DNA of 13,191 nucleotides from an uncultured Gemmatimonadota bacterium (GTDB taxonomy: Bacteria; Gemmatimonadota; Gemmatimonadetes; Gemmatimonadales; GWC2-71-9): the NCBI GenBank assembly GCA_913009915.1, contig CAJVYZ010000017.1, positions 1-13,191 of the forward strand, given 5' to 3'. The notes below the pieces were generated by a model. The model was given only the letters and a program-made list of their open reading frames with translations, was not told the origin of the DNA and did no database searches. Positions 1 through 13,191 of the stretch are shown in pieces; positions within the stretch are counted from its first letter, which is position 1; every line of letters begins with the position of its first letter. The position numbers and the translations under genes are program-made.

Positions 1-18
1 TTCTCTGTTTTCTTTTTC

Positions 19-75
19 ATGATACGGCGACCACCGAGATCTACACTCTTTCCCTACACGCCGCTCTTCCGATCT
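19..75 (+). other. Illumina P5/TruSeq universal adapter (sequencing artefact)
   Basis: Bases 19-75 match the P5 flow-cell plus read-1 primer adapter from its second or third base to its final GATCT. There is one obvious difference, C instead of A at base 61 (ACACGCCGCTC). Bases 1-18 are T-rich low-complexity sequence outside the adapter. Read leftwards in frame with the receptor gene, the adapter gives the peptide IGRAACRERV, a well-known contaminant tail in protein databases. This is not biological sequence. Real genome starts at base 76. Confidence 0.98.
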
Positions 76-1471
76 GGTCCTGCTGATACGACAGCCCGAC
101 CTCCGGGGCCAGCGCCCGCTCGGCCGACTGGGACAGGTTCTGCGTCCAGTTCAGCGTGTAGATGCGGTTCTCACCCAGCGTCCCGGACACGTTGATCGGG
201 TTTACCGGGTTGAAGCCGCGGGTTTGGTTCTGTCGGAAGATGGCGCTCGCCTTGAGCCGCGAGCCGGTGCCATAGGAATAGTTCAGGTTGCTGGTCAAAC
301 GCCAGTTCGAGTTGGTCGTTCCCGGCAGCCGTGAGCCACGGCAATCCTGCCCGTAGTTGCTGGCGATATCGGGATCGGCACTGCTCGAGAACGCGTCGCA
401 CTCACCGGTGTAGATGGCCCACTTCTGGACGTCGACGAAGCTGGTGTCCGATAGTGGGTTGCCCACATCCTGCGGCACCGCAATGGTCAAGTCCCGTCCC
501 GCCTGGACGAAGACCGGGTCCTTCTCCCGGTCCTGGCCGAAACCGGCCGACTGCCGGCCCTCGAGGTCGCCACCGAGGAAGAACGTCAGGCCCGAGGTGA
601 TGGGACCGGAAATGCTGCCGGTGATCCGGTTGAGCCCGTTCGACGCGCTGGTGAAGTCGTTGCTCTCGTAACCCAGCGAGCCGGTCCAGCTACGCCCGCC
701 GGAACGGGTCTGGACGGCGATGATGCCGGATTGGGCGTTGCCGAACTCGGCCGCAGTGCCACCGGTGGTGATCGACGCCTGCTCGAAGCTGTTGACCGCA
801 ACGGTGTTGACGGTGGGGCCAAAGCCGATGATGGCCCTGCCCGAGGTATTGCCCTGCCCGGTGATGTTGCGGCTGCCGGCCTGGGCCGGGACACCGTCGA
901 TGTACAGCGCCGCCTCGTCGGCCCGGCCGCCGCGGATGTACAGCGTGCCGCCGCCGGCACTCGCCACCACGCCCGGCTGCAGCGCCAGGACCGCGGTGAC
1001 CCGGTCGACCGGGAGATTCCTGGTGAACTCGCCGTCTACCCGCTGCTTGGTGGTGACCTCGTCTCGAGGCACCAGCGGGTTGACCGCGGCCACCACGGTG
1101 ATCTCTTCGACCTCGAAGGGCGTCGCCTCGAGGGTGATGTCCTGAGTGGCCGTCTGATTACTCAGGATCTTGAGCCCGTCGATCTGGGTCGCCTTGTAGC
1201 CGATGAAGCTGGCCTGAAGCGTGATCGTCCCGATGGGCACATTGTTCATGAAGTAGTAGCCGTCGGCATTCGTGGTGACGTTAAACGTCGACCCGACAAT
1301 GAATACCTGGGCGTTGGCGATGGGTGCGCCCGCTTGGTCACGCACCGTGCCTTCGAGCTTACCACTCACATTCTGGGCCAAAGCCGTGCCGGCTCCCAGG
1401 CCTGAAATGAGCGCCGCGAGCACGATGGTACGTGCCGTGCGGGCGAAGGCGTTCACACAACCTTGTGTCAT
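76..1471 (-). CDS. TonB-dependent receptor with N-terminal CarboxypepD_reg domain (3' truncated)
   Basis: This is an outer-membrane TonB-dependent receptor; the substrate is unknown. The start is ATG at 1471, set by AGGAGG 9 bases upstream; a longer open frame back to 1585 lacks such support. About 465 genuine residues remain. Residues 1-32 are a signal peptide (hydrophobic IVLAALISGLGAGTALA, cleavage near AQ). Residues 36-115 are a carboxypeptidase-regulatory-like Ig domain (GTVRDQAGAPIANAQVFIVG, then GYKATQI). Residues 122-129 (EEITVVAA) resemble a TonB box. The plug domain follows, with LQPGVV near 164-169, LYIRGGRADEAALYIDGVP at 177-195 and the QSGIIAVQTRSGG segment at 247-259. Early beta-barrel strands run to residue 465. 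Family members are often 900-1100 residues, so most of the barrel is missing because the contig ends in adapter. The last residues of the open frame (IGRAACRERV) are adapter-encoded. Confidence 0.92.
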
Positions 1472-1480
1472 GAGTAACGT

Positions 1481-1486
1481 CCTCCT
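1481..1486 (-). promoter_or_regulatory. Shine-Dalgarno of the TonB receptor
   Basis: AGGAGG on the minus strand, 9 bases before the ATG at 1471. It fixes the start of the receptor and gives the protein a normal signal peptide. Confidence 0.85.
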
Positions 1487-1821
1487 ACAGGGTGAACACA
1501 GGATTCCTTCTCCAAACAAAAAGCGAATGTGACGCACACGCCTCCCTTCCGGCGGGGTGCCTGGTGACCACGATAAGGTCGGCATAGGGCAGCGCCTGGG
1601 GCAGGCCGTGCCGGTACCGGATGTCGCTCAGCCACCGCGACTTATGCCCCCTCTGCTGGCACAGAAGGCGACCGCATGATGGCAACTTCGTGGGGGCGCG
1701 AACGCACTTGGCTCCGCGCCCGAGTTGGGCCAGCGACTGCGTCGAAACTACCTGCTCAGAGAGCAGCTATTGGTGTCGATCTGATCTAGGAAACGTCGAC
1801 CGCGGCCCGGCCGACAGCACC

Positions 1822-1850
1822 AATATGTGGTGACCCAGATCACCTGTCAA
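1822..1850 (-). promoter_or_regulatory. Sigma70-like promoter with palindromic operator in its spacer
   Basis: On the minus strand a perfect -35 hexamer TTGACA (1850-1845) is followed by a 17-base spacer and CATATT (1827-1822), 4 of 6 matches to TATAAT. The spacer begins with the imperfect-centre palindrome GGTGA-N6-TCACC (1844-1829). Its 5-6-5 geometry is that of Crp/Fnr-family sites (TGTGA-N6-TCACA). Transcription would run left towards the TonB receptor, giving a leader of roughly 340 bases before the ATG at 1471. The promoter match and the palindrome are seen directly. The regulator family and the target are inferences. Confidence 0.5.
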
Positions 1851-2050
1851 GCGAGCGAAACGGCCAGCCGACAACCGCCGTTTCCATCTTGTACGTGTGT
1901 CTCTCTCTGCAACTGCTATCGGGCCATTCAGTCCCACGGGAAGCAGGTCTCAGCCAGGGACGCGCCGCCCGACCCACTCCGAGCGGCAACCGGCTTGCCC
2001 GAAGCGGCAGCTATCATACTGCACGATCCCCATCTTGGCTAGGGGTGAAT

Positions 2051-3229
2051 TCAATTGGGCAAGATCAGCCGCTGCTGAGGGCTCTCGGGTGTGACCACGG
2101 GGCCCTCAGGCCCCCAATACATGTTGATCTCGCTGCGGACGCCGAACTCACCCGGGAGGTAGATCCCCGGCTCGATCGAGAAGCCCACCCCCGGCATCAG
2201 CTCGCGCTCGTCGTGGGTTTCGTAATCGTCCAGATGGGGCCCCGATCCATGCAACTCACGGTCTATCGAATGGCCCGTCCGATGCACGAAATATTCCCCG
2301 TAGCCGGCCGCTTCGATCACCCCCCTGGCCGCCCGGTCACCCTCGAATCCAGCGACGGGCCTGCCCGCCGCTATCCCCTGCCGAATGACCTCGATTGCGG
2401 CGTCCCTGGCGGAGCGGACCGTGCGCCACACTTCCTCCACTCGCTCCGGCGGGCTGTCCCCGGCAAAGGCCATCCACGTCTGGTCGGCGAACACCGTATC
2501 ACGGGTCCGGCCGCCCCACAGATCCAACAGCACCACATCACCGGGGCAAAGCCGGGCATCGCTCCCCACTCGCGGCTGGTAGTGGGGATTGGCCGCGTTG
2601 GCCCCGAAGGCCACGATCGGCAGCTCATTCAGCTCCAGCCCACCGGCCTCCATCGCCGCCACCACCCGGGACTGAACCGCCACTTCGCCCACGGCCAACC
2701 CGGGATCGGCCACTGTCTCGGCCAGCGCGCGCCGGGCCACGTCCGCGATCACTTCGGCGGCGAAGGTATGGTCCTCGATTTCACCGGCGCTCCAGGTGGC
2801 GGCAAAGCGCGTGACCAGAGGCGCCGAGGGGACCACGGTGGCCCCCAAACGGGTCAACAACTCGACCACCCCGGCCGGAATCCTGTCGAGGTAGGGCACG
2901 GCGTCGTCGGGAAATACCTCCATCGCCAGGGTGCGACCAGACACCAGCGGCCCCAGGGCGGCTTCGAGCTCCTGCCAGCGGGCATAGGGTACCATCCGGC
3001 CGGGAAATCCCTCCATCGGCTGGAGTTCGATCTTGTGCACCACCGCCACCGGCTCCCCCTCCCGGGGGATGAGGACGAACAAGCGCCGGGTCGCCATACC
3101 CTCCAACCCCAGGACCCGCGGGGTTACCGGATTGACGCCGTGAAAATCGAACAGCAACCAGCCGTCCACCGCCATCTCGCCCAGGGTGGACCGGACCGCA
3201 TCCAGGTCCAATCCCCGCATGTCTGCCAT
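2051..3229 (-). CDS. M24-family metallopeptidase (Xaa-Pro aminopeptidase-like)
   Basis: A cytoplasmic dinuclear-metal peptidase of the pita-bread fold, expected to remove an N-terminal residue before proline. At 392 residues it has the usual two parts: a creatinase-like N-terminal domain (about 10-145) and the catalytic M24 domain (about 150-390). All five metal ligands can be assigned: Asp236 (VVLLDLWG), Asp249 (VFADQTW), His320 (HRTGHSID), Glu353 (SIEPGIY) and Glu367 (VRSEINM). His216 (NPHYQP) matches a conserved substrate-side histidine. There is no signal peptide. The start ATG at 3229 has AGGAGG five bases upstream, overlapping the stop codon of the preceding gene, so the two are in one operon and probably translationally coupled. 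Dipeptidase or prolidase activity cannot be excluded. Confidence 0.93.
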   Translation of the reverse strand: MADMRGLDLDAVRSTLGEMAVDGWLLFDFHGVNPVTPRVLGLEGMATRRLFVLIPREGEPVAVVHKIELQPMEGFPGRMVPYARWQELEAALGPLVSGRTLAMEVFPDDAVPYLDRIPAGVVELLTRLGATVVPSAPLVTRFAATWSAGEIEDHTFAAEVIADVARRALAETVADPGLAVGEVAVQSRVVAAMEAGGLELNELPIVAFGANAANPHYQPRVGSDARLCPGDVVLLDLWGGRTRDTVFADQTWMAFAGDSPPERVEEVWRTVRSARDAAIEVIRQGIAAGRPVAGFEGDRAARGVIEAAGYGEYFVHRTGHSIDRELHGSGPHLDDYETHDERELMPGVGFSIEPGIYLPGEFGVRSEINMYWGPEGPVVTPESPQQRLILPN

Positions 3230-3238
3230 GGCTGCCTC

Positions 3239-3859
3239 CTAATAAGGATCGTTGATGTCGACCGCTTCCGAGCGCCAGAGGCATACCTCACCGCCCCAGG
3301 CACGGCATTGCTCGTGCACCATGGCGCCCTCGAATCCAGCCAACGCCCGTAGCAGCTCGCTCATGGCGGCTCCGATGAACTCGCAGGATACCTCGTTGGC
3401 CGGCGATGCGGCCAATTCTGCCCGGGCGGACAGCCGGTCCACCGCCAGCCGGACCCCCAGGAGCTCCTCGGCGACCACGGCCGCCTTGCGGGATCCCAAC
3501 CGGCGGCGCCAGCGCCGGGGGATGAAGAACAGCGCCAGGCGCCAGGATCGGGCCACCGACCGTGCTGCATAGCGGCCGGCGCGCCGGCCGGCATCGGCGT
3601 AGACCAGCCGAACATCGGGTCGCCGGTTGACCAGCTCGAATACCGCTCCCACTTCCGCCGGTTCTACCGCGGTCTTGTGGCGTGCCAACCCCCGGTACCG
3701 GTCAATCTGAGCCGATACCGTGGCATTGAGACCGAGGCGCTTGGCGATGATCTCGGTGCTCAATTCCTCTAAGCCGTCCTCCACGGGACGGTCGAGGTTG
3801 CGCATGGCCTCGAGCAGGCTGAGAGGCAGGATGGCTGACGTTCGCTCGGATGTCATCAT
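3239..3859 (-). CDS. Small protein with a C-terminal V4R-like domain (putative)
   Basis: A 206-residue soluble protein with no signal peptide. I do not recognise a named orthologue. The C-terminal part (about 125-197) resembles the V4R (4-vinyl-reductase) small-molecule-binding domain: a CEFIGAAMSELLRAL helix (Cys159), then a strand ending in EQCRAWGGEVCLW with Cys185 and Cys193, close to the family's E-C-x-A-x-G-x-x-x-C ending. Residues 95-125 are very basic (GRYAARSVARSWRLALFFIPRRWRRR) and could bind nucleic acid or membrane. The start is either of two adjacent ATG codons (3859 or 3856), and no strong Shine-Dalgarno is visible. Its stop is 9 bases before the M24 peptidase start. It is divergent from the ECF sigma gene, so the two may share regulation. 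The V4R call rests on pattern memory only. Confidence 0.65.
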   Translation of the reverse strand: MMTSERTSAILPLSLLEAMRNLDRPVEDGLEELSTEIIAKRLGLNATVSAQIDRYRGLARHKTAVEPAEVGAVFELVNRRPDVRLVYADAGRRAGRYAARSVARSWRLALFFIPRRWRRRLGSRKAAVVAEELLGVRLAVDRLSARAELAASPANEVSCEFIGAAMSELLRALAGFEGAMVHEQCRAWGGEVCLWRSEAVDINDPY

Positions 3860-3870
3860 GGTGTGGGGGC

Positions 3871-3937
3871 GGAACTTAGCCCCCTCGGCGGGGCCGGGGC
3901 CACCCCGGATGCCAGGCGCGGTGATGAAGGTTCCCCG
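3871..3937. promoter_or_regulatory. Divergent GGAAC motifs between the V4R-like and sigma-factor genes (weak)
   Basis: The 135-base divergent gap (3860-3994) carries GGAACTT on the plus strand (3871-3877) and GGGGAACC on the minus strand (3937-3930). GGAAC is the core -35 element of ECF sigma factors, and each motif points towards the gene it would serve. No matching ECF -10 element (for example the SigR GTT after about 18 bases) is evident for either. Treat this as a possible autoregulatory region only. Confidence 0.2.
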
Positions 3938-3994
3938 GGCAGGTGGTGTCCTCCTTGGTAGGCCAACCAGTCGCCACCCTCTGCCAGCTGTCCC

Positions 3995-4585
3995 ATGCCT
4001 ATGCCACTAACAGAGACCGCCGATCAATCCACTCCGGAGTCTTTCGAGAGAGAGGCTCTCCCCCATCTCGACACCTGCTTCCGGGTCGCCTGCCGCTTGA
4101 CCGGGGACCCCAGCAGGGCGGAGGACCTGGTTCAGGAAACCATGCTCAAGGCCTTCCGAGCCTGGCACCGCTTCAGACCCGGAACCAACGCCCGCGGCTG
4201 GTTGTTGACCATTCTGAGAAACAGTTTCATCAATCAGTACCGCAAGCAGAAACGAGAGCCGATCGGGGTCGACATCGATGCGGTGGATCCGATGGCCATC
4301 TACCGCAGGGTGGGGCAGACCGACCCCGAAGGTGAGTTCTTCGGCAAGCTGATCGACCGCAAGGTCTTGGACGCCATCGACAAGCTGGCAATCGAGTTCC
4401 GGGAAGTTCTGGTACTGAGCGACATCGAAGACCTCAGCTACGCCGAGATATCGAGTATGTTGGAGATACCGATCGGAACGGTGAAGTCCCGGTTGTTCCG
4501 GGCCCGCAGGCAACTGCAGGACCAACTCTACGACCATGCGGTGGCAATGGGCTACATATCCCCCCGGGAGCGCCAACTCCAATGA
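3995..4585 (+). CDS. ECF sigma factor, SigR/RpoE type
   Basis: A 196-residue group-4 sigma factor that would direct RNA polymerase to a stress regulon. Region 2 spans about 17-90: FEREALPHLDTCFRVACRLTG, then DLVQETMLKAFRAWHRFRPGTN (the -10 reading helix) and GWLLTILRNSFINQYRKQKREP. A linker of about 35 residues follows. Region 4 spans about 127-178 (LAIEFREVLVLSDIEDLSYAEISSML, then GTVKSRLFRARRQL, the -35 helix-turn-helix). The FINQYRKQKREP block and overall pattern resemble actinobacterial SigR. Starts at ATG 3995 or 4001 are both possible and neither has a clear Shine-Dalgarno. Its TGA overlaps the next gene's ATG (ATGA), and that gene encodes its predicted anti-sigma partner. It heads the nine-gene plus-strand operon and is likely to regulate it. 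Confidence 0.95.
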   Translation: MPMPLTETADQSTPESFEREALPHLDTCFRVACRLTGDPSRAEDLVQETMLKAFRAWHRFRPGTNARGWLLTILRNSFINQYRKQKREPIGVDIDAVDPMAIYRRVGQTDPEGEFFGKLIDRKVLDAIDKLAIEFREVLVLSDIEDLSYAEISSMLEIPIGTVKSRLFRARRQLQDQLYDHAVAMGYISPRERQLQ

Positions 4586-4842
4586 CCAAAGTACCGTCGA
4601 CGGTACTTGACTGCGACGAGGCCCTCGAGCTGTTGCACGAGTACCTGAAGCAACAGCTCACTCCGGAGCTTGCCGAGCGCGTGAGAGCTCACATCGAGAT
4701 GTGCCGCCCATGTCTCTCCCACTCACGGTTCGAGGCCAGTTACCTAAGAATGCTCGAGCACAAGCTCAAGAGCATCACCTGCCCCCCCGAGAGTCGTGAG
4801 CGGATACTCACCGCCCTCCACGGTGAACTCCCTCTCAGCTGA
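4582..4842 (+). CDS. RsrA-like zinc-binding anti-sigma factor (ZAS family)
   Basis: An 86-residue soluble protein with no transmembrane helix. It should sequester the adjacent sigma factor and release it on oxidation. Cys11, His37, Cys41 and Cys44 (DCDEA, then HIEMCRPC) occupy the same residue numbers as the zinc ligands of Streptomyces RsrA (Cys11, His37, Cys41, Cys44). In RsrA, disulphide formation involving Cys11 expels zinc and frees SigR. An extra Cys67 (SITCPPESRERI) lies in the C-terminal helix region. The start ATG overlaps the sigma stop codon, indicating translational coupling and near-equal synthesis. The known RsrA chemistry applies by homology; the actual inducer here is not shown by the sequence. 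Confidence 0.9.
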   Translation: MTKVPSTVLDCDEALELLHEYLKQQLTPELAERVRAHIEMCRPCLSHSRFEASYLRMLEHKLKSITCPPESRERILTALHGELPLS

Positions 4843-5629
4843 ACCGGTCGCCCTCTGGGCCGCCGCCCTCACCGCGAGCACCATCGCCGCGGTCGCCTGG
4901 CAACTCAAATCCCTGACCGCTCCCGGCGCCGTGGCGGCAGCCCTCGTCGGCCTGGCGCTGCTCTCGGGGACCGGGTGGGGTGGCGGCATCGTCCTGGGCA
5001 CCTTCTTCATCACCAGCACCGCCGCTTCCCGCACCTTCCCCTGGGAGAAGCAGTCGCCCACCTTCGGGGACAGCCGCCGCACCGCCTGGCAAGTCGCGGC
5101 CAACGGAGGCGCCGCCGCAGTGGGTGGACTGATTGGCATGGCCCCTGCCGGTCTGGGCTGGTGGATCGTCACCGCCGCGCTCGCCGGGGCGGCAGCCGAC
5201 ACCTGGGCCACCGAGGTCGGCAAAGCGACCGGGGGGACACCTCGGGATCTGCTCACCGGTGAGCCGGTCCCGCCGGGAACCAGCGGCGGGGTCACCACGG
5301 CCGGTACCCTGGCCGGTGCCGGCGGCGCAACGGTGATCGGGCTGGTGGCGGGAGCGGTGACCGGGTGGCCCGCCTTGGCGGTGGCCGGAGTCGTCATCGG
5401 GTTCGGCTCCATGATGGCCGACTCGGTACTGGGCGCGGCCTGGCAGGTACGCTACGCCTGCCCAGCCTGCCGAGCGGAGTGCGAGGAACCTAGGCACCGA
5501 TGTGGTGCCGCGGCTGAGTATCAACGGGGAATACCATGGCTCAACAACGACGCGGTGAACGCGGCCGCCACCACCATCGCCGCATCCGCTGGCGGGCTCT
5601 GGTGGTGGCTGGCGCGTGTGGCCTTTTGA
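4796..5629 (+). CDS. DUF92 / TMEM19 / VTE6-family integral membrane protein
   Basis: A 277-residue polytopic membrane protein. Plant VTE6 in this family is a phytyl-phosphate kinase; bacterial members are largely uncharacterised, so a prenyl-phosphate kinase role is only an analogy. Family blocks are clear: PTFGDSRRTAWQVAANGG (88-105), AADTWATEVG (133-142), PPGTSGGVTTAGTLAG (159-174), ADSVLGAAWQ (208-217) and WLNNDAVN (248-255). About six hydrophobic segments are visible (for example 17-36, 45-60, 104-135, 166-205). A loop at 222-236 carries CPACRAEC plus a later Cys, a possible metal or redox site. GTG 4796 is used here. An in-frame GTG at 4823 is equally possible; either overlaps the anti-sigma gene (47 or 20 bases). 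The last 94 bases overlap the next gene in another frame. Confidence 0.85.
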   Translation: MSGYSPPSTVNSLSAEPVALWAAALTASTIAAVAWQLKSLTAPGAVAAALVGLALLSGTGWGGGIVLGTFFITSTAASRTFPWEKQSPTFGDSRRTAWQVAANGGAAAVGGLIGMAPAGLGWWIVTAALAGAAADTWATEVGKATGGTPRDLLTGEPVPPGTSGGVTTAGTLAGAGGATVIGLVAGAVTGWPALAVAGVVIGFGSMMADSVLGAAWQVRYACPACRAECEEPRHRCGAAAEYQRGIPWLNNDAVNAAATTIAASAGGLWWWLARVAF

Positions 5630-6039
5630 TCGCCGCCTGTGGCGGCGATCGAAAGGCTTCCCCAACCGGACCACTGGGAGACCCCGTAACGCCACCGGGC
5701 CAAGGGGGCGGGGGCGGGGGCGGGGGCGGCAGCCTCAGCCCACTGGTAGGGGAGTGGCTCAACACGCTCATCGTGGAACTGAACGGCGACTTCCAGCGGA
5801 TAGAAACGACCTGGGTCTTCAGCAGCGATGGCAACTGTTCCCGGACGGTGGAGACGTTTTCGGTCCTGGAAGACCGGCTGCGCATCAGTCGGCGCAGCTG
5901 CACCTACCAGGCCGACACCCACCAGCTGGCCGTCCTTTACTCCGACGCCCAGGAAAACGTCCACTTCGATTTTTCCTTCCCCGAATTCTCCCGGGACTTG
6001 TTGCTGATCGGCCAGTTCCGCTTCCGTCGCATCTTCTAG
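5536..6039 (+). CDS. Predicted lipoprotein, function unknown
   Basis: A 167-residue protein with a long basic N-region (RRGERGRHHHRRIRWR), a hydrophobic stretch and a lipobox IAAC at 32-35, so it should be lipidated on Cys35 and exported. A flexible linker contains nine consecutive glycines (57-65). The mature domain (about 68-167) is rich in beta-like alternation (LVGEWLNTLIVELNG, ETTWVFSSDG, HFDFSFPEF), suggesting a small lipocalin-like barrel. Cys101 and Cys122 could form a disulphide. I do not recognise the family. ATG 5536 has GGGGAA about 6 bases upstream. The start lies 94 bases inside the DUF92 gene; no other start would leave a charged N-region before the lipobox. It ends 16 bases before the flavoprotein gene. 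Confidence 0.75.
   Translation: MAQQRRGERGRHHHRRIRWRALVVAGACGLLIAACGGDRKASPTGPLGDPVTPPGQGGGGGGGGGSLSPLVGEWLNTLIVELNGDFQRIETTWVFSSDGNCSRTVETFSVLEDRLRISRRSCTYQADTHQLAVLYSDAQENVHFDFSFPEFSRDLLLIGQFRFRRIF
5622..5656 (+). promoter_or_regulatory. 16-bp stem, 3-base loop hairpin at the DUF92 stop codon
   Basis: CCTTTTGATCGCCGCC (5622-5637) pairs with GGCGGCGATCGAAAGG (5641-5656) around the loop TGT: fifteen Watson-Crick pairs and one T-G. The DUF92 TGA stop (5627-5629) is in the left arm, and the hairpin also encodes the lipobox of the next protein. No T tract follows, so it is not a standard intrinsic terminator. It may act in mRNA processing, attenuation or control of downstream translation. Confidence 0.55.
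5704..5727 (+). repeat. (GGGGGC)x4 tandem repeat, potential G-quadruplex
   Basis: Four perfect copies of GGGGGC, giving four runs of five G with single-base C loops on the coding strand. They encode most of the polyglycine linker of the lipoprotein. Such runs are strong G-quadruplex formers in DNA and mRNA, and are prone to slippage that would shift the reading frame. Confidence 0.85.
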
Positions 6040-6055
6040 CCGAGGGTCGAGTCAC

Positions 6056-7273
6056 GTGGATATCACGGTCGACGCCCTGATCGTTGGCGCGGGGCCTGCC
6101 GGCAGTGTCACCGCCACCCTCCTGGCTGACGCGGGCCTCCAGGTATTGGTCGTGGACCGGGCCGCCTTCCCGCGTGACAAGCCGTGCGCCGAGTACCTGA
6201 GTCCGGCCGCGGTGCTCATTCTCGAGAGGCTCGGTGTACTGGGCACGCTGAAGGACGCCGGCGCCAACCCCCTCTCCGGAACGACGGTGGTCGGCGCCTA
6301 CGGCAGCCGGCTCACCGGCCTGTTCGCCAAGACGGGGAGCCCCCCCCTCCACCGCCCTACCGGACTGGCCGTTACCAGGCGGATTCTCGACGCAGCATTG
6401 GTCGACGCCGCCCGGAGCCGGGGCGTCACGGTCATGGAGCGGACCCGGGTGGTTGAGCTAATACGCCATCGGGGAGCGGTGACCGGAGCGGTGATCGCCA
6501 CAGCCGGAGGGAAAACAGCCACGGTCGCGGCCCCCGTCACGGTGGGCGCCGACGGCCTCCACTCGGTAGTGGCCCGCTGGTTCGGTGGTGTGAGGAGAGC
6601 GCCGCTCCGGCGCTGGGCCTTCGTGGGTCATTTCGCCGGCGTCACCGGCCTGGCAGACCGGGCGGAACTCCACGCCGGCACCGAGGGCTACGCCGGGCTC
6701 AACCCTATCGGCCCGGGCATCACCAATGTGTCCCTGGTAGTTCCCCGGCAAGTCGCCAGACGCGCGCGCGGCGATGTGGCGGACTTTTTTCATAGCACCC
6801 TCGACCGGTTCGACGGGATACGGAACCGGGTTCACCCTTCGGGTTCGCTGGGGCCGATCCGAACGGTGGGCCCGTTCGGGGTTCGAGCGCGACGGCCGGT
6901 GGTGGACGGCGGACTACTGGTCGGCGACGCGGCGGAGTTCTTCGACCCCTTCACCGGAGAGGGGATACACTCCGCCCTCCGGGGCGCCGAACTCGCCAGC
7001 TGGACTATCCTCGAAGCCACCCGAGGCCCGAAGCCATTCTCCGCCACGTCATTGAGCAGTTATCTTCGTGCCCGCCGCCGGGCGTTCTGGGGCAAATGGG
7101 TGGTCGAGCGCATGATCGGCTATGGTATGTTGATGCCACGACTGTTCGACCGGGCCGTCGAGCGCATCGGCAGGAAGGACCCGATGGCCCACACGTTGAT
7201 AGGAGTCACCGGCCACGTCGTCCCGCCGGGCGCGGTCCTGAATCCGGTATTTCTCACTAGGATGGTGCTGTGA
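6056..7273 (+). CDS. FAD-dependent oxidoreductase, geranylgeranyl-reductase / PHBH-fold family
   Basis: A 405-residue flavoprotein. FAD-binding signatures are in order: VGAGPAGS dinucleotide motif (10-17) with Asp34 at the end of the second strand, VGADGLHSVV DG motif (163-172), and GLLVGDAAEFFDPFTGEGIHSAL GD motif (286-308). KPCAEYLSP (42-50) matches the KPCG-type segment of geranylgeranyl reductases and related tailoring oxygenases. The basic C-terminal region (340-405) lacks a signal peptide or obvious transmembrane anchor. There is no WxWxIP, so it is not a typical flavin halogenase. Possible reactions are alkene reduction of an isoprenoid or oxygenation of an aromatic or polyketide substrate. 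It starts at GTG 6056 with GAGGG nine bases upstream. Its TGA overlaps the flavin reductase start (GTGA), which suggests the two work as a pair. Confidence 0.9.
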   Translation: MDITVDALIVGAGPAGSVTATLLADAGLQVLVVDRAAFPRDKPCAEYLSPAAVLILERLGVLGTLKDAGANPLSGTTVVGAYGSRLTGLFAKTGSPPLHRPTGLAVTRRILDAALVDAARSRGVTVMERTRVVELIRHRGAVTGAVIATAGGKTATVAAPVTVGADGLHSVVARWFGGVRRAPLRRWAFVGHFAGVTGLADRAELHAGTEGYAGLNPIGPGITNVSLVVPRQVARRARGDVADFFHSTLDRFDGIRNRVHPSGSLGPIRTVGPFGVRARRPVVDGGLLVGDAAEFFDPFTGEGIHSALRGAELASWTILEATRGPKPFSATSLSSYLRARRRAFWGKWVVERMIGYGMLMPRLFDRAVERIGRKDPMAHTLIGVTGHVVPPGAVLNPVFLTRMVL

Positions 7274-7752
7274 ACCCAGCGATCGACCCCGCGTTGTTCC
7301 GGCAACTGATGGGCCGTTTCGCCACCGGCGTCACCGTGGTCACCGTGGGGTCGCCCGGCGGGAAACTATCCGGCATTACGGTCAACAGCCTCAGTTCGGT
7401 CTCCCTCGACCCGCCGTTGGTGTCGATATGCATCGACCGGGGGGCGGACATGCACGCTACCCTCACCGGCGCAACGGGGTTCGTCATCAACATCCTCCGC
7501 TCCGATCAGGAGTCCGTCTCCCGCCGCTTCGCCGACGGCCGGCCCGACCGATTCGACGGCGTGGGCTACGGTCTGAGCAATGACGGACATCCCATCCTTG
7601 ACGGCGTGCTGGCACACCTCGAGTGCACCGTGCACGCGTCGATCGAAGCCGGCGACCATTCGGTATTCCTCGGCCGCGTGGTCGGCGGGACATCGGGCGA
7701 GGGACCTCCGCTCCTGTTTTATCGAGGGGGATACGGACTGGACGGCACGTGA
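7270..7752 (+). CDS. Flavin reductase-like FMN-binding protein (HpaC/RutF family)
   Basis: A 160-residue split-barrel flavin reductase that would use NAD(P)H to make free reduced flavin. Family features: FRQLMGRFATGVTVVT (10-25), GITVNSLSSVSLDPPLVSICID (35-56, flavin-phosphate loop), FVINIL (71-76), LAHLECTV (114-121), GDHSVFLGRVV (128-138) and the C-terminal PLLFYRGGYG (147-156). GTG 7270 overlaps the upstream TGA by four bases and has AGGA seven bases before it. Its own TGA overlaps the methyltransferase GTG. Its likely partner is the preceding flavoprotein. It could instead carry bound FMN and be a stand-alone oxidoreductase. Confidence 0.92.
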   Translation: MNPAIDPALFRQLMGRFATGVTVVTVGSPGGKLSGITVNSLSSVSLDPPLVSICIDRGADMHATLTGATGFVINILRSDQESVSRRFADGRPDRFDGVGYGLSNDGHPILDGVLAHLECTVHASIEAGDHSVFLGRVVGGTSGEGPPLLFYRGGYGLDGT

Positions 7753-8471
7753 GCGAGTCTCTCATCGCCCCGCACGGCAGGGAGCTGCTGGACCAGCCTG
7801 ATGCCGATCCGCGCCTGGTTCGCCGCAACTTGGCTGACCTGGTCAAAGCCAACAGGTGGCTGGGTGGACGCAGGGCACTGTCACTCGGACTGCAGCGGAC
7901 GATGGGACATCTCCCGGCGGGAACCCGATTGACCCTACTGGACATTGGAACCGGAAGCGGGGATTTGCCGGCGTATTGCCAGACCTGGGCCCGGGCTCGA
8001 GGCCTCACCATCAACCCGGTGGGACTTGAGCGAATACCCGCCGCCGCCCGGATCGCTGCCGGGAGCGGGTTGCCCACCTTCATCGGTTGTGCCAGTGCCT
8101 TTCCCGTCCGGCCGAAGTCGGTGGACATCGTCCTGGTAAGCCAGGTGGTACACCATTTCAACCGGGACGCCGCCGTCGAGCTGCTACGATGGTGTGACCG
8201 CTTTGCCCGCCGGGCCGTCATCATGGTGGACCTCCGGCGCTCGCGGATGGCGGCGGCAGGCTTCCAGATCGGTGCCCGGATTCTCGGATTCGCCCCGGTG
8301 ACTATCGACGATGGCCTGACCTCAATCGAGCGAGGTCTGACCGCGAGCGAAGCCCGCGCCCTGCTCGCCGATGCCGGGGTGTCAGCAGCGGTGACACGTG
8401 TTGCCCCGTATCGGCTGATCGCCACGTGGTCTCCGCGCGAACGGCAACTGGAGCCAGAATGCGAACGATAG
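7749..8471 (+). CDS. Class I SAM-dependent methyltransferase
   Basis: A 240-residue methyltransferase. Motif I is LTLLDIGTGSGDLP (61-74). The acidic end of the second strand is at VGLE (91-94), and the motif IV-like strand is VDIVLVSQVVHHF (125-137). The N-terminal NLADLVKANRWLGGRRAL (27-44) resembles the helical cap of methyltransferases found beside type III polyketide synthases and FAD tailoring enzymes, which points to small-molecule O- or C-methylation rather than RNA or protein work. That comparison is from memory. The open frame extends upstream to 7623, but GTG 7749 in a GTGA overlap with the flavin reductase stop is chosen because it matches the operon's pattern and the domain start. 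The 3' end overlaps the SRPBCC gene by 13 bases. Confidence 0.9.
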   Translation: MSESLIAPHGRELLDQPDADPRLVRRNLADLVKANRWLGGRRALSLGLQRTMGHLPAGTRLTLLDIGTGSGDLPAYCQTWARARGLTINPVGLERIPAAARIAAGSGLPTFIGCASAFPVRPKSVDIVLVSQVVHHFNRDAAVELLRWCDRFARRAVIMVDLRRSRMAAAGFQIGARILGFAPVTIDDGLTSIERGLTASEARALLADAGVSAAVTRVAPYRLIATWSPRERQLEPECER

Positions 8472-8926
8472 ATCGTTTACGGATACGGGCTCCGGCCAGC
8501 CGGGTCTTTGCCGCCGCCGCCGCCGTGGAACGCTGGCCCGACATCCTCCCCCACTACCGGTGGGTAACCCGGCAGGGCCGGGAGCAAGACGCGGAGATCG
8601 TCGAAATGGCGGCGTGGAGGCAGTTCGGCCTGTTCCAATATCCCACTTGGTGGCGATCGCGGATGTGGACCGACCCGGCGGGCCGGGCCATCCGCTACAA
8701 CCACATCGCCGGTATCACCAAGGGCATGGACGTCGAGTGGCGGCTCGAGGCAGACGGCAACGAGACGGAAGTCACCATCGTACACCAGTGGGACGGCCCG
8801 GCGTGGCCTCTCATCAAACGCCCGGCCGCCGACTGGGTCATAGGCCCGCTGTTCATCTCGGCCATTGCGTCGCGCACCCTCGCCGGCATCGGCCGGTTCG
8901 CGGAATCAGCGGAATCAGATGGATAG
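8459..8926 (+). CDS. SRPBCC-family protein (polyketide cyclase/dehydrase-like)
   Basis: A 155-residue protein with the START/Bet v1-like helix-grip fold, as in aromatic polyketide cyclases and in CoQ10-binding (COQ10/RatA) proteins. Visible signs: an N-terminal strand RLRIRAPASRVFAAAAAVERWPDILPHYRWV (7-36), the typical A-P-x-x-V-F and E-x-W-P-x-x-L-P signature; middle beta strands (46-113); and a C-terminal long helix (123-150) that would cap the hydrophobic cavity. ATG 8459 is fixed by GGAG five bases upstream (8450-8453) within the end of the methyltransferase gene. The frame's earlier start at 8426 lacks this. It overlaps the ketosynthase gene by 8 bases. The ligand is unknown; cyclisation or carrying of the operon's product is an inference. 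Confidence 0.88.
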   Translation: MRTIDRLRIRAPASRVFAAAAAVERWPDILPHYRWVTRQGREQDAEIVEMAAWRQFGLFQYPTWWRSRMWTDPAGRAIRYNHIAGITKGMDVEWRLEADGNETEVTIVHQWDGPAWPLIKRPAADWVIGPLFISAIASRTLAGIGRFAESAESDG

Positions 8927-10175
8927 CAACGGCAAGCCGCGCCGGGTGGTGATCACCGGCGTCGGCCCGCTCACCCCCATAGGCATCGGACTCGAGCCGT
9001 TCTGGCAGGGACTCCGCAACGCGGCCTCGGCCGTGGGCCCCGTGGAGCGGTTCGATCCGTCACCTTTCAAGAGCCGCATCGCGGCAGAAATCAGGGACTT
9101 TCACCCAGAGGATTTCCTGGAGGCACGCCGGGTCCGTCGGCTAGATCGTTACTCCCAGTTCGCCGTGGCGGCCACCCGGATGGCTCTGGGCGACGCCGAG
9201 CTCGATTGGGCGCGCGAGGATTCTGACCGGGTAGGTGCCATGATGGGCACGGCGCTGGGCGGCATCGCCTCGGCCGAGGAACAGCACGCCAGGTTCGTTG
9301 ACGGCGGGACCGCCGCCGTCAATCCGGCCCTGGCGTTGATGGTCTTTCCCGGGGCGGCCAGCTGCAACATTGCCATCGAGTTCGGGTTCACCGGGCCGAA
9401 CGCCACCAACGGCATGAGCTGCGCCTCGGGAACGATCGCCATCGGCGAAGCGTTCCGTGCCGTCCGCCGGGGAGATGCCGATGTCATGGTGGCCGGCGGC
9501 GCAGAGGCGCCCCTGGCGCCGCTGAGTTTCGGCGCCTTCGCCATCATCCGGGCGATGTCCACCCGCAATGACGACCCCGGATCGGCCAGTCGCCCCTTCG
9601 ACATCGGGCGCGACGGGTTCGTAATGGGTGAGGGCGCCGCCGTCCTGATCCTCGAAGAGCGACAACGCGCCGTAGCCCGGGGCGCGCCGATCTATGCCGA
9701 GGTGGTGGGCTTCGGCACCAGCAACGACGCCCATCACATGACGGCCCCACTCCCCGACGGCAGCCAGGCCGCCCGCTCGATCAAGATGGCGTTGGCCGAC
9801 GCGGCCGTCGCTCCGAGCGAGGTGAGCTACATCAACGCCCACGGCTCCTCCACTCCACTCAACGATCCAACGGAGGTCTCCGCCATCAAGCGGGTGTTCG
9901 GCGATCACGCCTACCGCGTGGCTTTGAGCGGAACCAAGGGCTACTACGGTCACGCCCTCGGCGCCAGCGGCGCCATCGAAGCGGCCATCTGCGCCCTGGC
10001 AATCGCCCGCGGGTGGCTCCCCCCAACCGTCAACCTGACCACGCCCGACCCCGCCTGCGACCTCGATCTGGTGACCGGATCGGGCCGTGACCTTGCGCCG
10101 CTCATCACCGTGAGCAATTCGTTCGGCTTCGGCGGCATCAATGCCGCACTGGTGTTCCGGCACCCGGACGATTAG
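8919..10175 (+). CDS. Beta-ketoacyl-ACP synthase, KAS II/FabF-like
   Basis: A 418-residue condensing enzyme with complete catalytic machinery: nucleophile Cys168 (NGMSCASGT), His308 (INAHGSSTPLND), Lys340 (GTKGYYGH) and His345, plus the SNSFGFGGINAAL glycine-rich end. The numbering is offset by only five from E. coli FabF (Cys163, His303, Lys335, His340), and length is normal. It should perform decarboxylative Claisen condensation of malonyl-ACP with an acyl primer. ATG 8919 (MDSNGKPRRVVITGVG) overlaps the SRPBCC stop by eight bases. No acyl carrier protein, chain-length factor or ketoreductase is in the window. The setting after flavoenzymes, methyltransferase and cyclase-like protein suggests specialised lipid or polyketide synthesis rather than the housekeeping fabF, which usually sits beside acpP and fabG. 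Confidence 0.95.
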   Translation: MDSNGKPRRVVITGVGPLTPIGIGLEPFWQGLRNAASAVGPVERFDPSPFKSRIAAEIRDFHPEDFLEARRVRRLDRYSQFAVAATRMALGDAELDWAREDSDRVGAMMGTALGGIASAEEQHARFVDGGTAAVNPALALMVFPGAASCNIAIEFGFTGPNATNGMSCASGTIAIGEAFRAVRRGDADVMVAGGAEAPLAPLSFGAFAIIRAMSTRNDDPGSASRPFDIGRDGFVMGEGAAVLILEERQRAVARGAPIYAEVVGFGTSNDAHHMTAPLPDGSQAARSIKMALADAAVAPSEVSYINAHGSSTPLNDPTEVSAIKRVFGDHAYRVALSGTKGYYGHALGASGAIEAAICALAIARGWLPPTVNLTTPDPACDLDLVTGSGRDLAPLITVSNSFGFGGINAALVFRHPDD

Positions 10176-10251
10176 GGGGTTCCGCCCAGTCGACGGTTCC
10201 TCTAGATTCGCGCCGTCCATTCATCTACCACTCCCAGTCTGAGAGCATCCT

Positions 10252-10941
10252 ATGGCTACACTCTCGCGCCGCCTCGTGGCGGAGGCGTTCGGCACCTTCG
10301 GTCTCGTGTTCGTCGGCAGCGCCGTCGTCGTGGTCAACGCCTTCCCCAGCGCCGCGTTCGGCCTCTTGGGGATCGCGGTGGCACACGCGTTCGTCTTTGC
10401 AATCATGATCACGGCCACGATGAACATTTCCGGCGGCCATCTCAATCCCGCCGTCACCTTCGGGCTCCTGGTGGCGCGCAAGATCGACTTGCGCACCGCC
10501 CTTCCCTACATCGCCGCCCAACTCGCCGGGGCCGCGCTGGGAGCACTGCTCGTCAAGTACGCCATCCCGTCCAACGTCGGCCGGGTCCTGAGTTACGGCA
10601 CGCCGGTCATCGCCAGCTCCATCACGCTGGGCCAGGCCATCACCATCGAAGCCGTGCTGACGTTCTTCCTGGTCTCGGCAGTCTTCGGCACCGCCGTGTC
10701 GCCCGAGGCTCCCAAGGTGGGGGGGTTCGGCATCGGCCTGGTGCTGCTGTTCGCCATCCTGGTGGGCGGGCCCCTGACCGGGGCGGCGTTGAATCCGGCG
10801 CGGGCGTTCGGCCCAGCGTTGGTGTCGGGCAACTGGCTGGGCCAGGCGGTGTGGTGGGTGGGACCGCTCCTCGGCGGGCTAGCCGCGGGCTTGCTGTGGA
10901 AGTTGGTGCTGCTTCCGCCGGAGAAGACCCAAGAGAGCTGA
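10252..10941 (+). CDS. MIP-family channel (aquaporin/aquaglyceroporin-like)
   Basis: A 229-residue inner-membrane channel with six hydrophobic helices and two half-helices carrying Asn-Pro-Ala boxes: GGHLNPAVTF (61-70) and GAALNPARAFGPAL (177-190). Arg184 after the second box fits the selectivity filter. Helix 2 begins HAFVFAI with His45. In helix 5, LTFFLVSAVFGTAV (136-149), the histidine typical of water-specific AqpZ/AQP1 (LLVIHGAT) is replaced by a hydrophobic residue, as in some TIP-like or broader-range channels. So glycerol, ammonia, urea or similar solutes are possible besides water. It begins 76 bases after the ketosynthase, with only a weak GAGAG upstream, and may be a separate unit. 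It converges with ccmD across a repeat array. Confidence 0.92.
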   Translation: MATLSRRLVAEAFGTFGLVFVGSAVVVVNAFPSAAFGLLGIAVAHAFVFAIMITATMNISGGHLNPAVTFGLLVARKIDLRTALPYIAAQLAGAALGALLVKYAIPSNVGRVLSYGTPVIASSITLGQAITIEAVLTFFLVSAVFGTAVSPEAPKVGGFGIGLVLLFAILVGGPLTGAALNPARAFGPALVSGNWLGQAVWWVGPLLGGLAAGLLWKLVLLPPEKTQES

Positions 10942-10948
10942 GCAGCTA

Positions 10949-11012
10949 GGGCGGTAAGGCGGTAGCTGCCAGTACCGCCTTACCGCCTTACCGCCCTACC
11001 GCCCTACCGCCC
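10949..11012. repeat. Five tandem 8-bp repeats (TACCGCCY) with inverted copy; bidirectional hairpin
   Basis: TACCGCCT occurs twice and TACCGCCC three times in unbroken tandem (10973-11012). Two inverted units, GGGCGGTAAGGCGGTA, lie at 10949-10964. GGCGGTAAGGCGGTA (10950-10964) pairs perfectly over 15 bases with 10973-10987 around an 8-base loop; register shifts allow alternative pairings. It lies between the converging aquaporin and ccmD genes and may end transcription on both strands, though no T tract is present. The ccmD stop codon (11006-11004) falls within it. Confidence 0.9.
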
Positions 11013-11135
11013 AAGGATATCCCGGTCGCTGCGGAGGGCGCGGAGCGCTCGGGTGATCAGACTTCCTCCATATACCAGATAGACCACGGCGGCGACGATG
11101 TAGGCCGCGATCATGTAGCCCGCGTTTTCCGGCAT
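11004..11135 (-). CDS. ccmD: CcmD-like small membrane protein of the haem exporter
   Basis: A 43-residue protein: short polar N-terminus, one transmembrane helix (about 8-25, MIAAYIVAAVVYLVYGGSL), then a basic cytoplasmic tail (TRALRALRSDRD). This is the usual CcmD pattern, which bridges the CcmABC complex and holo-CcmE. The start is ATG 11135, with AGGAGG six bases upstream and one base between it and the ccmC stop. A longer frame to 11207 overlaps ccmC and is rejected. The final residues LGR and the TAG stop are encoded by the flanking tandem repeat, so the C-terminus seems to have been set by the repeat. Identification rests on position, size and topology. Confidence 0.85.
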   Translation of the reverse strand: MPENAGYMIAAYIVAAVVYLVYGGSLITRALRALRSDRDILGR

Positions 11136-11136
11136 G

Positions 11137-11832
11137 TCAGGCCTCCTCGTCCAGTTGAGCCATGGCATGGCGGGCCAAGCCGTAACGCAGCACCACGAAA
11201 CCCACATACAACACCGTCGCGGCCAGGAACCCGAGCAGCAGGGTCCGCAGCATCTCCGGGGGCAGGGAGGGAGATGACGGCTTGAGAACGATGGGCATGG
11301 GGTGCAGCGTCCGGAACAGATACACGCTCAAGTGGATGAACGGCACCAACACCATGCCCATGATCCCCACGACCGCCGCAAATCTGGCCCGTTCGGCCGG
11401 GTCGTGGACGGCCGAGCGCAGGGTCATGTATCCCACGAACAACAGGAACAGGATGAGCGTCAGGGTCAACCGCGCATCCCACGTCCACCACGTGCCCCAG
11501 ATCGGCTTGCCCCAGATGGGTCCCGTTGTCAGCATGATGACACTGAAGACCAGGCCGACTTCGGCCGAGGACGCCGCGAACGCGTCGAGGCGCTCGTCCC
11601 GGAGCCACAGATAGAGAATGCTGACCAGGCCGACGAGGGTGAACGCCACCATGGCGCTCCAGGCCGCGGGAACATGCACGTAGAAGATCTTCTGCGCCGC
11701 GCCCTGCCTCACCTCGAGCGGGGTATAAGCCAAGGCGAGCAGGTAGATGCCCACCATGGCCACCAGACCCAATACCGTGAGGGCGATGCCCCACTTCATG
11801 ATGCCGCGACTGCTGCTGATAGTGGGCTTCAT
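11137..11832 (-). CDS. ccmC: Haem exporter/lyase subunit CcmC
   Basis: A 231-residue inner-membrane protein with six helices that presents haem at the periplasmic face for transfer to CcmE. The tryptophan-rich haem-handling motif WGTWWTWD is at 112-119. Conserved histidines are His53 (YVHVPAAW, first periplasmic loop) and His167 and His177 (IHLSVYLFRTLHP, third periplasmic loop), the expected axial ligand positions. The ATG overlaps the ccmB stop (ATGA), and the stop is one base from ccmD. No strong Shine-Dalgarno is seen, which fits translational coupling. Length and order match system I cytochrome c maturation. Confidence 0.96.
   Translation of the reverse strand: MKPTISSSRGIMKWGIALTVLGLVAMVGIYLLALAYTPLEVRQGAAQKIFYVHVPAAWSAMVAFTLVGLVSILYLWLRDERLDAFAASSAEVGLVFSVIMLTTGPIWGKPIWGTWWTWDARLTLTLILFLLFVGYMTLRSAVHDPAERARFAAVVGIMGMVLVPFIHLSVYLFRTLHPMPIVLKPSSPSLPPEMLRTLLLGFLAATVLYVGFVVLRYGLARHAMAQLDEEA
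11142..11147 (-). promoter_or_regulatory. Shine-Dalgarno of ccmD
   Basis: AGGAGG on the minus strand inside the last codons of ccmC, six bases before the ccmD ATG. It supports the 43-residue start. Confidence 0.8.
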
Positions 11833-12509
11833 TCGTCGACGACCGCCGGGAAGATGAGGACACAGAGCGTAATGAACACCACGTCATACAAGGCTAGAAT
11901 TCTAAGCCAGCCGATCATTTCGCTCAATGGACGGCCGGCGAACATGCGAGTCGTCGTTTGTACCGCCCCGATGAGCGGCGGCACCATGAACGGCAGCAAC
12001 AGCATGGGCAACATCAGCTCGGCAAACCGGGTTCGCACCGTCATGGCGCTGAACAAGGTTCCCACGGCCACGAACCCGATGGTCGCCAGGACGATGAGCC
12101 CGATCAGTCCCGTGAGGATGCCCCACACGGGCACATTGAAAAACAGCACGAACAGCGGGAGCGCCACGGCCTCGACCATACCGACGAACGCGAGGTTGGA
12201 GATCAGCTTGCCCACATAAATGGCGCTGCGTGACACCGGAGCGAGCAGGAGGCCTTCCAGCGCCGCGTTCTCCTTCTCCAAGTTGAACCCGCGATTCAGC
12301 GCGATCATGCCGGCGAACGCAAAGGTGATCCACAACACGCTCGGTGCCAGCACCGAGCTGGAAACCAGCGACGCGTCGCGGGCAAAGTTGAAGATGATCA
12401 ACACCAACGCGGCAAACACCACGGCCGAAAGAATAGCCGTCTTGCTACGGACCTCGATGACGATGTCCTTCCCGGCCACCGCCGCGGCAACCCGCAGCCA
12501 GCTATTCAC
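11829..12509 (-). CDS. ccmB: Haem exporter ABC permease CcmB
   Basis: A 226-residue membrane permease, the usual length for CcmB, with six hydrophobic segments. The typical block between helices 2 and 3 is present: FAGMIALNRGFNLEKENAALEGLLLAPVSRSAIYVGK (65-101). It pairs with the CcmA ATPase; the CcmAB complex releases holo-CcmE from CcmC. It starts at GTG 12509 within GTGAATAG, overlapping the ccmA stop by eight bases, and ends in an ATGA overlap with ccmC. All junctions in this operon are overlapping or nearly so. Confidence 0.95.
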   Translation of the reverse strand: MNSWLRVAAAVAGKDIVIEVRSKTAILSAVVFAALVLIIFNFARDASLVSSSVLAPSVLWITFAFAGMIALNRGFNLEKENAALEGLLLAPVSRSAIYVGKLISNLAFVGMVEAVALPLFVLFFNVPVWGILTGLIGLIVLATIGFVAVGTLFSAMTVRTRFAELMLPMLLLPFMVPPLIGAVQTTTRMFAGRPLSEMIGWLRILALYDVVFITLCVLIFPAVVDE

Positions 12510-13138
12510 GCAACAGACTTTCGTATTCCGGCAGGAAGCTGCCGAGCGGCGGCGGCGGAGACTCGCTCCTGATGACGGCGCCTTCTATCATCACCATCAT
12601 GTGACTTGCGATATCCCACACCTCGGCAAACTGGTGGCTGACAACCACGGCGCCGAGACCCTGGGACCGCCGACTGGTGAGCACGTCCTGGATATGCTTG
12701 GCCGCCGGGGCGTCGAGGCCGGTGAACGGCTCGTCCAGCAGGAGGATCTCGGGCTCAGCCAGCAACGCGCGAGCCAGCGCCACGCGTTGCACCATCCCCC
12801 GGCTGAGCGACCGCACCGGCTGGTGAGCCTTGTGCTCGAGGCCAACCGCGGCCAGCGCGGCCAGCGCCGCCCCACGGGGTTCGGCCAACCCGTAGATCCG
12901 TGCGGTAAACGCCAGGTTCTCCGCCGCCGTCAAATCGTCGTATAGAAAAGACTGGTGGGAAAGCAGCCCGATCGGCCGCCGCACCTCCGGGTCGGATGAC
13001 TTCAAGTCGCGGCCCTTGACCGCGACCCGGCCGGAGGTCGGCCGTACCAGGCCGCCAAGCATGCGGAGGAGGGTGGTCTTGCCGGCGCCGTTGGGACCGA
13101 AGACCGCCACCAGCCCGCCGCCGCCCACGGGGCTATCG
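12502..13138 (-). CDS. ccmA: Haem exporter ABC ATPase CcmA (5' truncated)
   Basis: ATP-binding subunit for cytochrome c maturation. Numbering the open frame from GTG 13143: Walker A GPNGAGKTT at 16-24, Q-loop LLSHQSFLYDD near 60-70, signature SRGMVQRVALARALL at 114-128 (LSRGMVQR is typical of CcmA), Walker B ILLLDEPFTGLD at 133-144, and H-loop VVVSH at 166-170. About 25-30 residues of the true N-terminus are missing. Upstream of 13138 the frame stays open but reads HSFPARRSSVL, a slightly mutated form of the adapter-derived peptide HSFPTRRSSDL. The apparent GTG start at 13143 is therefore inside degraded adapter and is not the real start. The operon promoter is outside the window. Confidence 0.93.
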
Positions 13139-13191
13139 AGCACCGAAGAGCGGCGAGCCGGGAAAGAGTGCAGCGCCGGTCGGTCCCCGCC
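13139..13191 (-). other. Degraded Illumina adapter at the right contig end (artefact)
   Basis: Read on the minus strand, these 53 bases align without gaps to the last 53 bases of the P5/TruSeq adapter found at 19-75. I count 36 identities, including exact runs CACTCTTTCCC and CGCTCTTC. The same C-for-A variant seen at base 61 also occurs here. Most differences are changes to G or C. The frame yields HSFPARRSSVL. Adapter with many miscalls is much more likely than native sequence, but low identity leaves some doubt. Confidence 0.8.

Follow-up and report, generated by a model that had tools for sequence, protein, structure and literature searches.

An operon of Gemmatimonadota combining a FabF-like ketosynthase, an SRPBCC protein, a methyltransferase and flavin enzymes, with a possible role in phenolic lipid synthesis

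Type II aromatic polyketide synthases (PKSs) combine a KSalpha ketosynthase (KS), a chain length factor (CLF) and an acyl carrier protein (ACP) with aromatases/cyclases (ARO/CYC) such as TcmN, WhiE and ZhuI. A different arrangement is found in hidABC-type operons, associated with hierridin B in cyanobacteria and with alkylresorcinols in Planctomycetota, for which the accessible text of PMC10896814 and PMC8086630 gives the order methyltransferase-oxidoreductase-type III polyketide synthase (T3PKS). Here we describe an operon in a 13,191-nucleotide stretch (the window; positions 1 to 13,191, forward strand) of contig CAJVYZ010000017.1 from an uncultured Gemmatimonadota bacterium (assembly GCA_913009915.1; 3.47 Mb, 676 contigs, 76.5% complete). 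An initial annotation made from the sequence alone had read nine plus-strand open reading frames (ORFs) at 3995..10175 as an operon linking a SigR/RsrA-type redox switch to a ketosynthase and a flavin tailoring set. All nine ORFs and the overlaps claimed for them were present when the junctions were re-read from the sequence, and the family names agreed with the Pfam domain calls, except for a putative lipoprotein that had no Pfam match. The operon is real and deeply conserved. Its combination of KS, SRPBCC protein, methyltransferase and flavin enzymes, which the annotation did not recognise as a named pathway, matched none that we found, and no paper describing the operon was found in the literature searched, which covered few subscription papers.

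The conserved part consists of five plus-strand genes. A flavin adenine dinucleotide (FAD) enzyme with a geranylgeranyl-reductase (GGR)/halogenase-like fold, predicted to be a ring oxidase or reductase (6056..7273; FAD_binding_3), is followed by a short-chain flavin reductase of the two-component type, which belongs to the core in the window's order (7270..7752; Flavin_Reduct), a PRK06202-like class I S-adenosylmethionine (SAM) methyltransferase (MT; 7749..8471; Methyltransf_11), an SRPBCC protein with an ARO/CYC-like profile and fold (8459..8926; Polyketide_cyc) and a FabF-like KS (8919..10175; ketoacyl-synt N and C). The FAD and flavin reductase genes overlap by 4 bases, as do the flavin reductase and MT genes (MT start GTG at 7749, reductase stop at 7750-7752), and overlaps of 13 and 8 bases are found at the MT/SRPBCC and SRPBCC/KS junctions. 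In the domain scan the MT protein began at 7752 and so lacked one codon.

We looked for the KS in 101 genomes from a set of relatives and fetched 60 orthologue loci from a subset of the KS-bearing genomes; several of these loci are cut by contig ends, some before the DUF92 gene or the divergent gene described below. FAD-flavin reductase-MT-SRPBCC-KS was contiguous, in the same order and on the same strand, in 52 of the 60 loci of the window's order, so the arrangement is not due to chance and the proposed biosynthetic set was borne out. The eight exceptions lack the MT (L052, L057) or the flavin reductase (L072, L080-L082), are cut by the contig start (L068) or hold about 2.8 kb between MT and SRPBCC (L086). 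The complete nine-gene set was present at only eight loci (L033-L035, L038, L040, L043, L045, L059), and the conserved unit is therefore smaller than nine genes. Of the two findings that the initial annotation named as refuting it, the first was a gene order not conserved outside this contig; as the order of the core recurs in many other genomes, the annotation withstood this first half of its test.

The KS is the second FabF of the window's genome, is sited outside the fatty acid synthesis (FAS) locus and is 41% identical to the FAS FabF of the same genome. Its 26 aligned orthologues, 58-75% identical to it, all carry MSCASG and mostly KGYYGHALGASG, and the catalytic residues C168, H308, K340 and H345 are conserved among them. 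For the SRPBCC protein, the best sequence-profile matches among solved structures were aromatase/cyclases, and fold comparison gave a helix-grip fold most like that of polyketide ARO/CYC proteins.

In a sample of 298 genomes across the phylum, the SRPBCC gene was found in 171 (E up to 1e-10; best 12 first-look candidates per genome scored) and the MT gene in 182 (E up to 1e-20; best 9 scored). Among public protein clusters, at least 7,995 of 8,000 scored matched the SRPBCC profile at E up to 1e-5, some of which may be non-orthologues, and among the matches listed (120 clusters) the E-value was 7e-73 or better. The gene set therefore looks like a common pathway, still unassigned, in a phylum of bacteria widespread in soil. 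A 97% SRPBCC match was found in a Gemmatimonadetes metagenome-assembled genome; a search of plasmids gave no SRPBCC match. Relatives outside the phylum were sought with patterns derived from the window's order; the best 80 of 192 confirmed loci were inspected, and all but two had Gemmatimonadota titles. These two, 'Bacterium HR33' and 'MAG: bacterium isolate DBS2-1.bin69', appear to equal genomes G019 and G062 of the window's order. The accessible part of PMC11271474 contains an antiSMASH table for six Gemmatimonadota strains, and this table lists no type II or III PKS cluster.

A further 25 loci, two of them (L188, L189) from one genome, were selected from other orders by their SRPBCC match. 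Fourteen had the order MT-FAD-SRPBCC-KS, and four more (L189, L194, L195, L196) were compatible with it but cut by contig ends. SRPBCC-KS stood alone in L249, L252, L253 and L255, and in L250, which also had SRPBCC-KS, the sequence reached about 1.2 kb upstream. In L246 and L247 the SRPBCC gene was found alone, between a CDF-like transporter and rpoD, and KS and MT were not found. In the 14 other-order loci tested for them, DUF92 gave no match and the sole sigma factor (L190) and flavin reductase (L193) matches were unlinked; the flavin reductase had no match in the remaining 11.

The distribution of the SRPBCC gene was compared with that of T3PKS, called in the same 298 genomes by PF02797 over its cut-off. 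Of 32 genomes with the domain, four were among the 171 with SRPBCC, 18 among the 23 that had the MT without SRPBCC and ten among the 104 with neither; with kinship ignored, Fisher values were 4e-8 for SRPBCC versus T3PKS and 9e-11 for the 23 versus the 104 genomes. Seven of the 23 were counted partly through a more distant MT within a T3PKS operon. The window's genome, at its 76.5% completeness, had no PF02797 match, and none of the nine operon genes is a T3PKS. A T3PKS adjoining the core in other orders was also considered and rejected, with no match in 20 SRPBCC-type loci searched with T3PKS queries included.

Eighteen T3PKS loci were fetched from the 32 genomes. Seven of them (L229, L230, L233, L235, L236, L239, L240) had the order MT-FAD-T3PKS, as in hidABC-type operons, with MT and FAD genes homologous to the window-type pair; the others had MT alone (L234, L241), a weak FAD match (L237) or neither (eight loci). 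The MT and FAD profiles were also run against the entire sequence of twelve genomes. In the seven MT-FAD-T3PKS genomes the copies adjoining the T3PKS were the best matches of the genome, with a second FAD close behind in G157 (132 versus 136 bits), while a better-scoring MT-FAD pair lay elsewhere in G187, G224 and G146, and G080 and G272 had no strong match. Genome G286 has the order MaeB, BamA-MT-FAD-SRPBCC-KS-rpoD, SSB polA. In G187 and G224, of the same genus, and in G146, of another, BamA-MT-FAD is followed by rpoD with SRPBCC-KS missing, and the T3PKS lies on a separate contig with no MT or FAD match adjoining. In trees, the FAD and MT proteins of these three genomes fall among the SRPBCC-KS type and the T3PKS-operon FAD proteins fall apart; support is weak at some forks, L237 forms a long branch, and the T3PKS-linked MT of L241 lies on the SRPBCC-KS side of a weak fork.

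Gene content and order, active-site residues, fold likeness and the tendency of the sampled genomes to carry either SRPBCC or T3PKS were observed; substrate, ring formation, product and a functional nature of the exchange are inferred. The FabF-like KS would add a few malonyl-ACP units to a fatty acyl-ACP, with no reduction steps and using the housekeeping ACP, and the SRPBCC protein would hold the poly-beta-keto chain and cyclise and aromatise it. The MT would methylate the ring and the FAD enzyme oxidise it, supplied by the flavin reductase where present. KS and SRPBCC would then do the job of the T3PKS in hierridin-type operons. Synthesis of a tailored phenolic lipid (alkylresorcinol/hydroquinone-like) by the core is the most likely of the readings considered but, in our judgement, an evenly balanced proposition, and there is about an even chance that KS and SRPBCC stand in for T3PKS in making an alkylresorcinol-like lipid. 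Only tentatively, with the chances somewhat against it, do we suggest that a lone FabF-type KS and a small SRPBCC cyclase form a minimal aromatic PKS, a non-homologous and repeatedly exchanged T3PKS replacement that provides a substantial fraction of Gemmatimonadota with a phenolic lipid. If this is true, a FabF relative and a 155-residue cyclase do type III PKS work, and the rules for CLF-free iterative condensation become directly testable.

Several observations weigh against this proposal. The KS passes the FabF model TIGR03150 (520.9 versus a cut-off of 493.75 bits). No CLF or second KS was found in 83 loci (one KS match in 81, zero in two), nor was an ACP, for which the query was the genome's AcpP alone, so that a divergent ACP could escape. 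In the SRPBCC fold search, START proteins other than ARO/CYC scored nearly as high, and the position aligned with Arg69 of TcmN, the catalytic Arg of that enzyme, is Met in all 27 sequences, with Tyr35 retained. The genes also part company: G110 and G142 retain SRPBCC where KS and MT were not found, and the SRPBCC protein may have a separate role of its own. In one family SRPBCC-KS has no MT or FAD adjoining it at four loci, the MT lying elsewhere in three of these genomes and not being found in the fourth (G213). Six SRPBCC genomes of genus g28 gave no MT match, and two fetched g28 loci (L052, L057) lack the MT gene. Phylogeny confounds the T3PKS/SRPBCC pattern, some of the genomes are incomplete, and scoring for SRPBCC and MT was limited to the best 9-12 first-look candidates in each genome. 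Five of the 23 MT genomes without SRPBCC (G087, G143, G265, G310, G315) have no T3PKS over the cut-off either. Finally, the three syntenic losses come from a set selected for T3PKS and therefore illustrate rather than prove replacement.

Alternatively, the KS could be a specialised FabF for an unusual acyl chain and the SRPBCC protein a START-type lipid carrier, with MT and FAD enzyme altering the aliphatic chain by methyl branching, hydroxylation or saturation and no aromatic ring being formed. We regard this as rather unlikely, since it leaves the T3PKS pattern and the homologous MT-FAD pair of the T3PKS operons unexplained and does not agree with the aromatase/cyclase profile matches of the SRPBCC protein.

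The FAD enzyme is nearest, by fold and profile, to halogenases such as Bmp2, FasV, PltA and ChlB4, but the halogenase-type motif P..S.G occurred in 0/27 sequences and a halogenase identity was rejected. The GGR-type motif DPFTG[EQ]G was found in 24 of the 27, the other three differing by Asp or Leu-Asp, and the best NCBIfam model was TIGR02032 (geranylgeranyl reductase; 140.8 bits, below the cut-off of 158.8). The MT scored 128 bits on PRK06202, under the cut-off of 243. These FAD features would suit a pathway of isoprenoid or quinone tailoring, in which a GGR-like enzyme saturates or oxidises a prenyl chain, the MT methylates a quinone, the SRPBCC protein is a COQ10-like carrier and the DUF92 integral membrane protein (4796..5629, +; DUF92), a frequent associate, is a VTE6-like prenyl-phosphate kinase. 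DUF92 was present at 49 of the 60 loci, and some SRPBCC relatives are named RatA or COQ10 by their sources. This explanation nevertheless appears improbable: it has no place for a ketosynthase, DUF92 was unmatched in the 14 other-order loci tested, and the FAD enzyme stays under the TIGR02032 cut-off. Moreover, the quinones that the accessible text of PMC11651109 names for Gemmatimonadota are MK-6, MK-8 and MK-9, with no mention there of saturated forms.

Upstream of the core, an accessory SigR/SigH-like extracytoplasmic function (ECF) sigma factor gene (3995..4585, +; Sigma70_r2 and r4) overlaps by 4 bases (4582-4585) the gene of an RsrA-like zinc-finger anti-sigma factor (4582..4842, +; zf-HC2), whose RsrA-type zinc/redox residues C11, H37, C41 and C44 are present in 12/12 aligned orthologues. 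The SigR/RsrA-type identity was upheld in part, by this residue set, but both proteins fall below the curated cut-offs (anti-sigma on TIGR03988, 41.5 versus 62.5 bits; sigma on TIGR02947, 162.5 versus 251.55 bits). The sigma gene was in place at 24 of the 60 loci (23 when only the 49 reaching the divergent gene are counted), and a further match in L089 was weak (28%) and on the other strand. As the pair is found at 24 loci only, redox control is not part of the core, and the link between switch and pathway drawn by the initial annotation was not sustained as a core feature. Among the 48 genomes of the same family for which a KS orthologue was listed, sigma lay within 8 kb in 28, farther on the same contig in two and on another contig in nine (some maybe split by contig ends), with no match in nine; 7 of 46 same-family sigma-bearing genomes, several of them incomplete, had no listed KS orthologue. 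Of the 23 loci with an upstream region to scan, L089 having none, 6 show a SigR-like site (GGAA-N16-20-GTT) ahead of sigma, and none was seen by eye in the window's own intergenic region; as a common element a SigR-type promoter was rejected, the dyad scan giving no clear common site. Control of the whole operon by a SigR/RsrA-type switch, as an oxidation-induced pathway, has in its favour the overlapping same-strand pair, its Cys/His set and GGAAC...GGTT-like sites before sigma in L046, L048, L049, L051 and L054 (of similar upstream sequence), but is very improbable in view of the 24 loci, the missing window site and the seven genomes, and, being compatible with the other readings, accounts for control and not for chemistry. 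Such a switch may control the operon within part of one family.

The 7-mer GCGGAAC was found in 13 of 23 intergenic regions upstream of the sigma gene. A GCGGAAC-TTAGC-like word lies at window 3868-3882 and recurs at that position in relatives. It stands next to hyp206, the divergent V4R-like gene that adjoins the operon (3239..3859, -; 49 of the 60 loci), and is possibly the promoter of that gene. The gene is named from V4R matches in 14 of 21 relatives (E at most 1; 3.8e-6 for the best), the window copy having none, and could encode a small-molecule sensor. Sigma-70 promoters and terminators showed no excess over shuffles, and Rfam gave no match.

The anti-sigma and DUF92 genes overlap by 47 bases (start GTG 4796) or 20 (start GTG 4823). 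DUF92 in turn overlaps by 94 bases the putative lipoprotein gene (5536..6039, +; lipobox-like LIAAC, by eye), which ends 16 bases before the FAD gene and is present at 11 of the 60 loci, overlapping DUF92 by 73-100 bases at eight of them. A B12-binding radical SAM protein lies between DUF92 and FAD at L075:7549-9051, and gaps of similar size are seen in L070, L078, L088, L089 and L091. A UbiE-like methyltransferase (by eye) is encoded in the L080:8781-9656 region (-), divergent from the FAD gene of a reductase-less operon. After a 76-base gap the KS gene is followed by an aquaporin-like gene (10252..10941, +; named by eye), found there in 40 of the 60 loci and probably a neighbour of the operon; short TACCGCCT-type direct repeats lie 3' of it (10945-11010, by eye). 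At the contig start, window 15-76, within ORF 41-1585, is an adapter-like assembly artefact, presumably Illumina adapter as judged by eye.

The sigma/anti-sigma pair resembles SigR/RsrA, the actinobacterial thiol-oxidation switch, in joining an ECF sigma factor to a HxxxCxxC anti-sigma factor with an extra N-terminal Cys, but differs in its scores below the curated cut-offs and in not being tied to the core operon. The FAD enzyme shares fold and profile with FADH2-dependent halogenases, and a flavin reductase stands in the same operon, but enzymes of the window type lack P..S.G and mostly carry the GGR-type motif. The KS is like FabF in its TIGR03150 score and its identity to the FAS FabF, and unlike it in lying outside the FAS locus and forming its own group by identity and motif. 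As in type II aromatic PKSs, a KS of the beta-ketoacyl-ACP synthase fold with intact catalytic residues adjoins an ARO/CYC-like SRPBCC protein, an MT and a flavin enzyme; here, however, the KS is FabF-like, a second KS or ACP was not matched, and Met replaces the TcmN Arg. The hidABC-type operon shares with this locus an MT, a FAD oxidoreductase and then a chain-building enzyme, a likeness for which MT/FAD homology was established with the seven Gemmatimonadota T3PKS loci rather than with HidA and HidB themselves. The window's order adds a flavin reductase and has another gene order, and the place of the T3PKS is taken here by the SRPBCC protein and the FabF-like KS.

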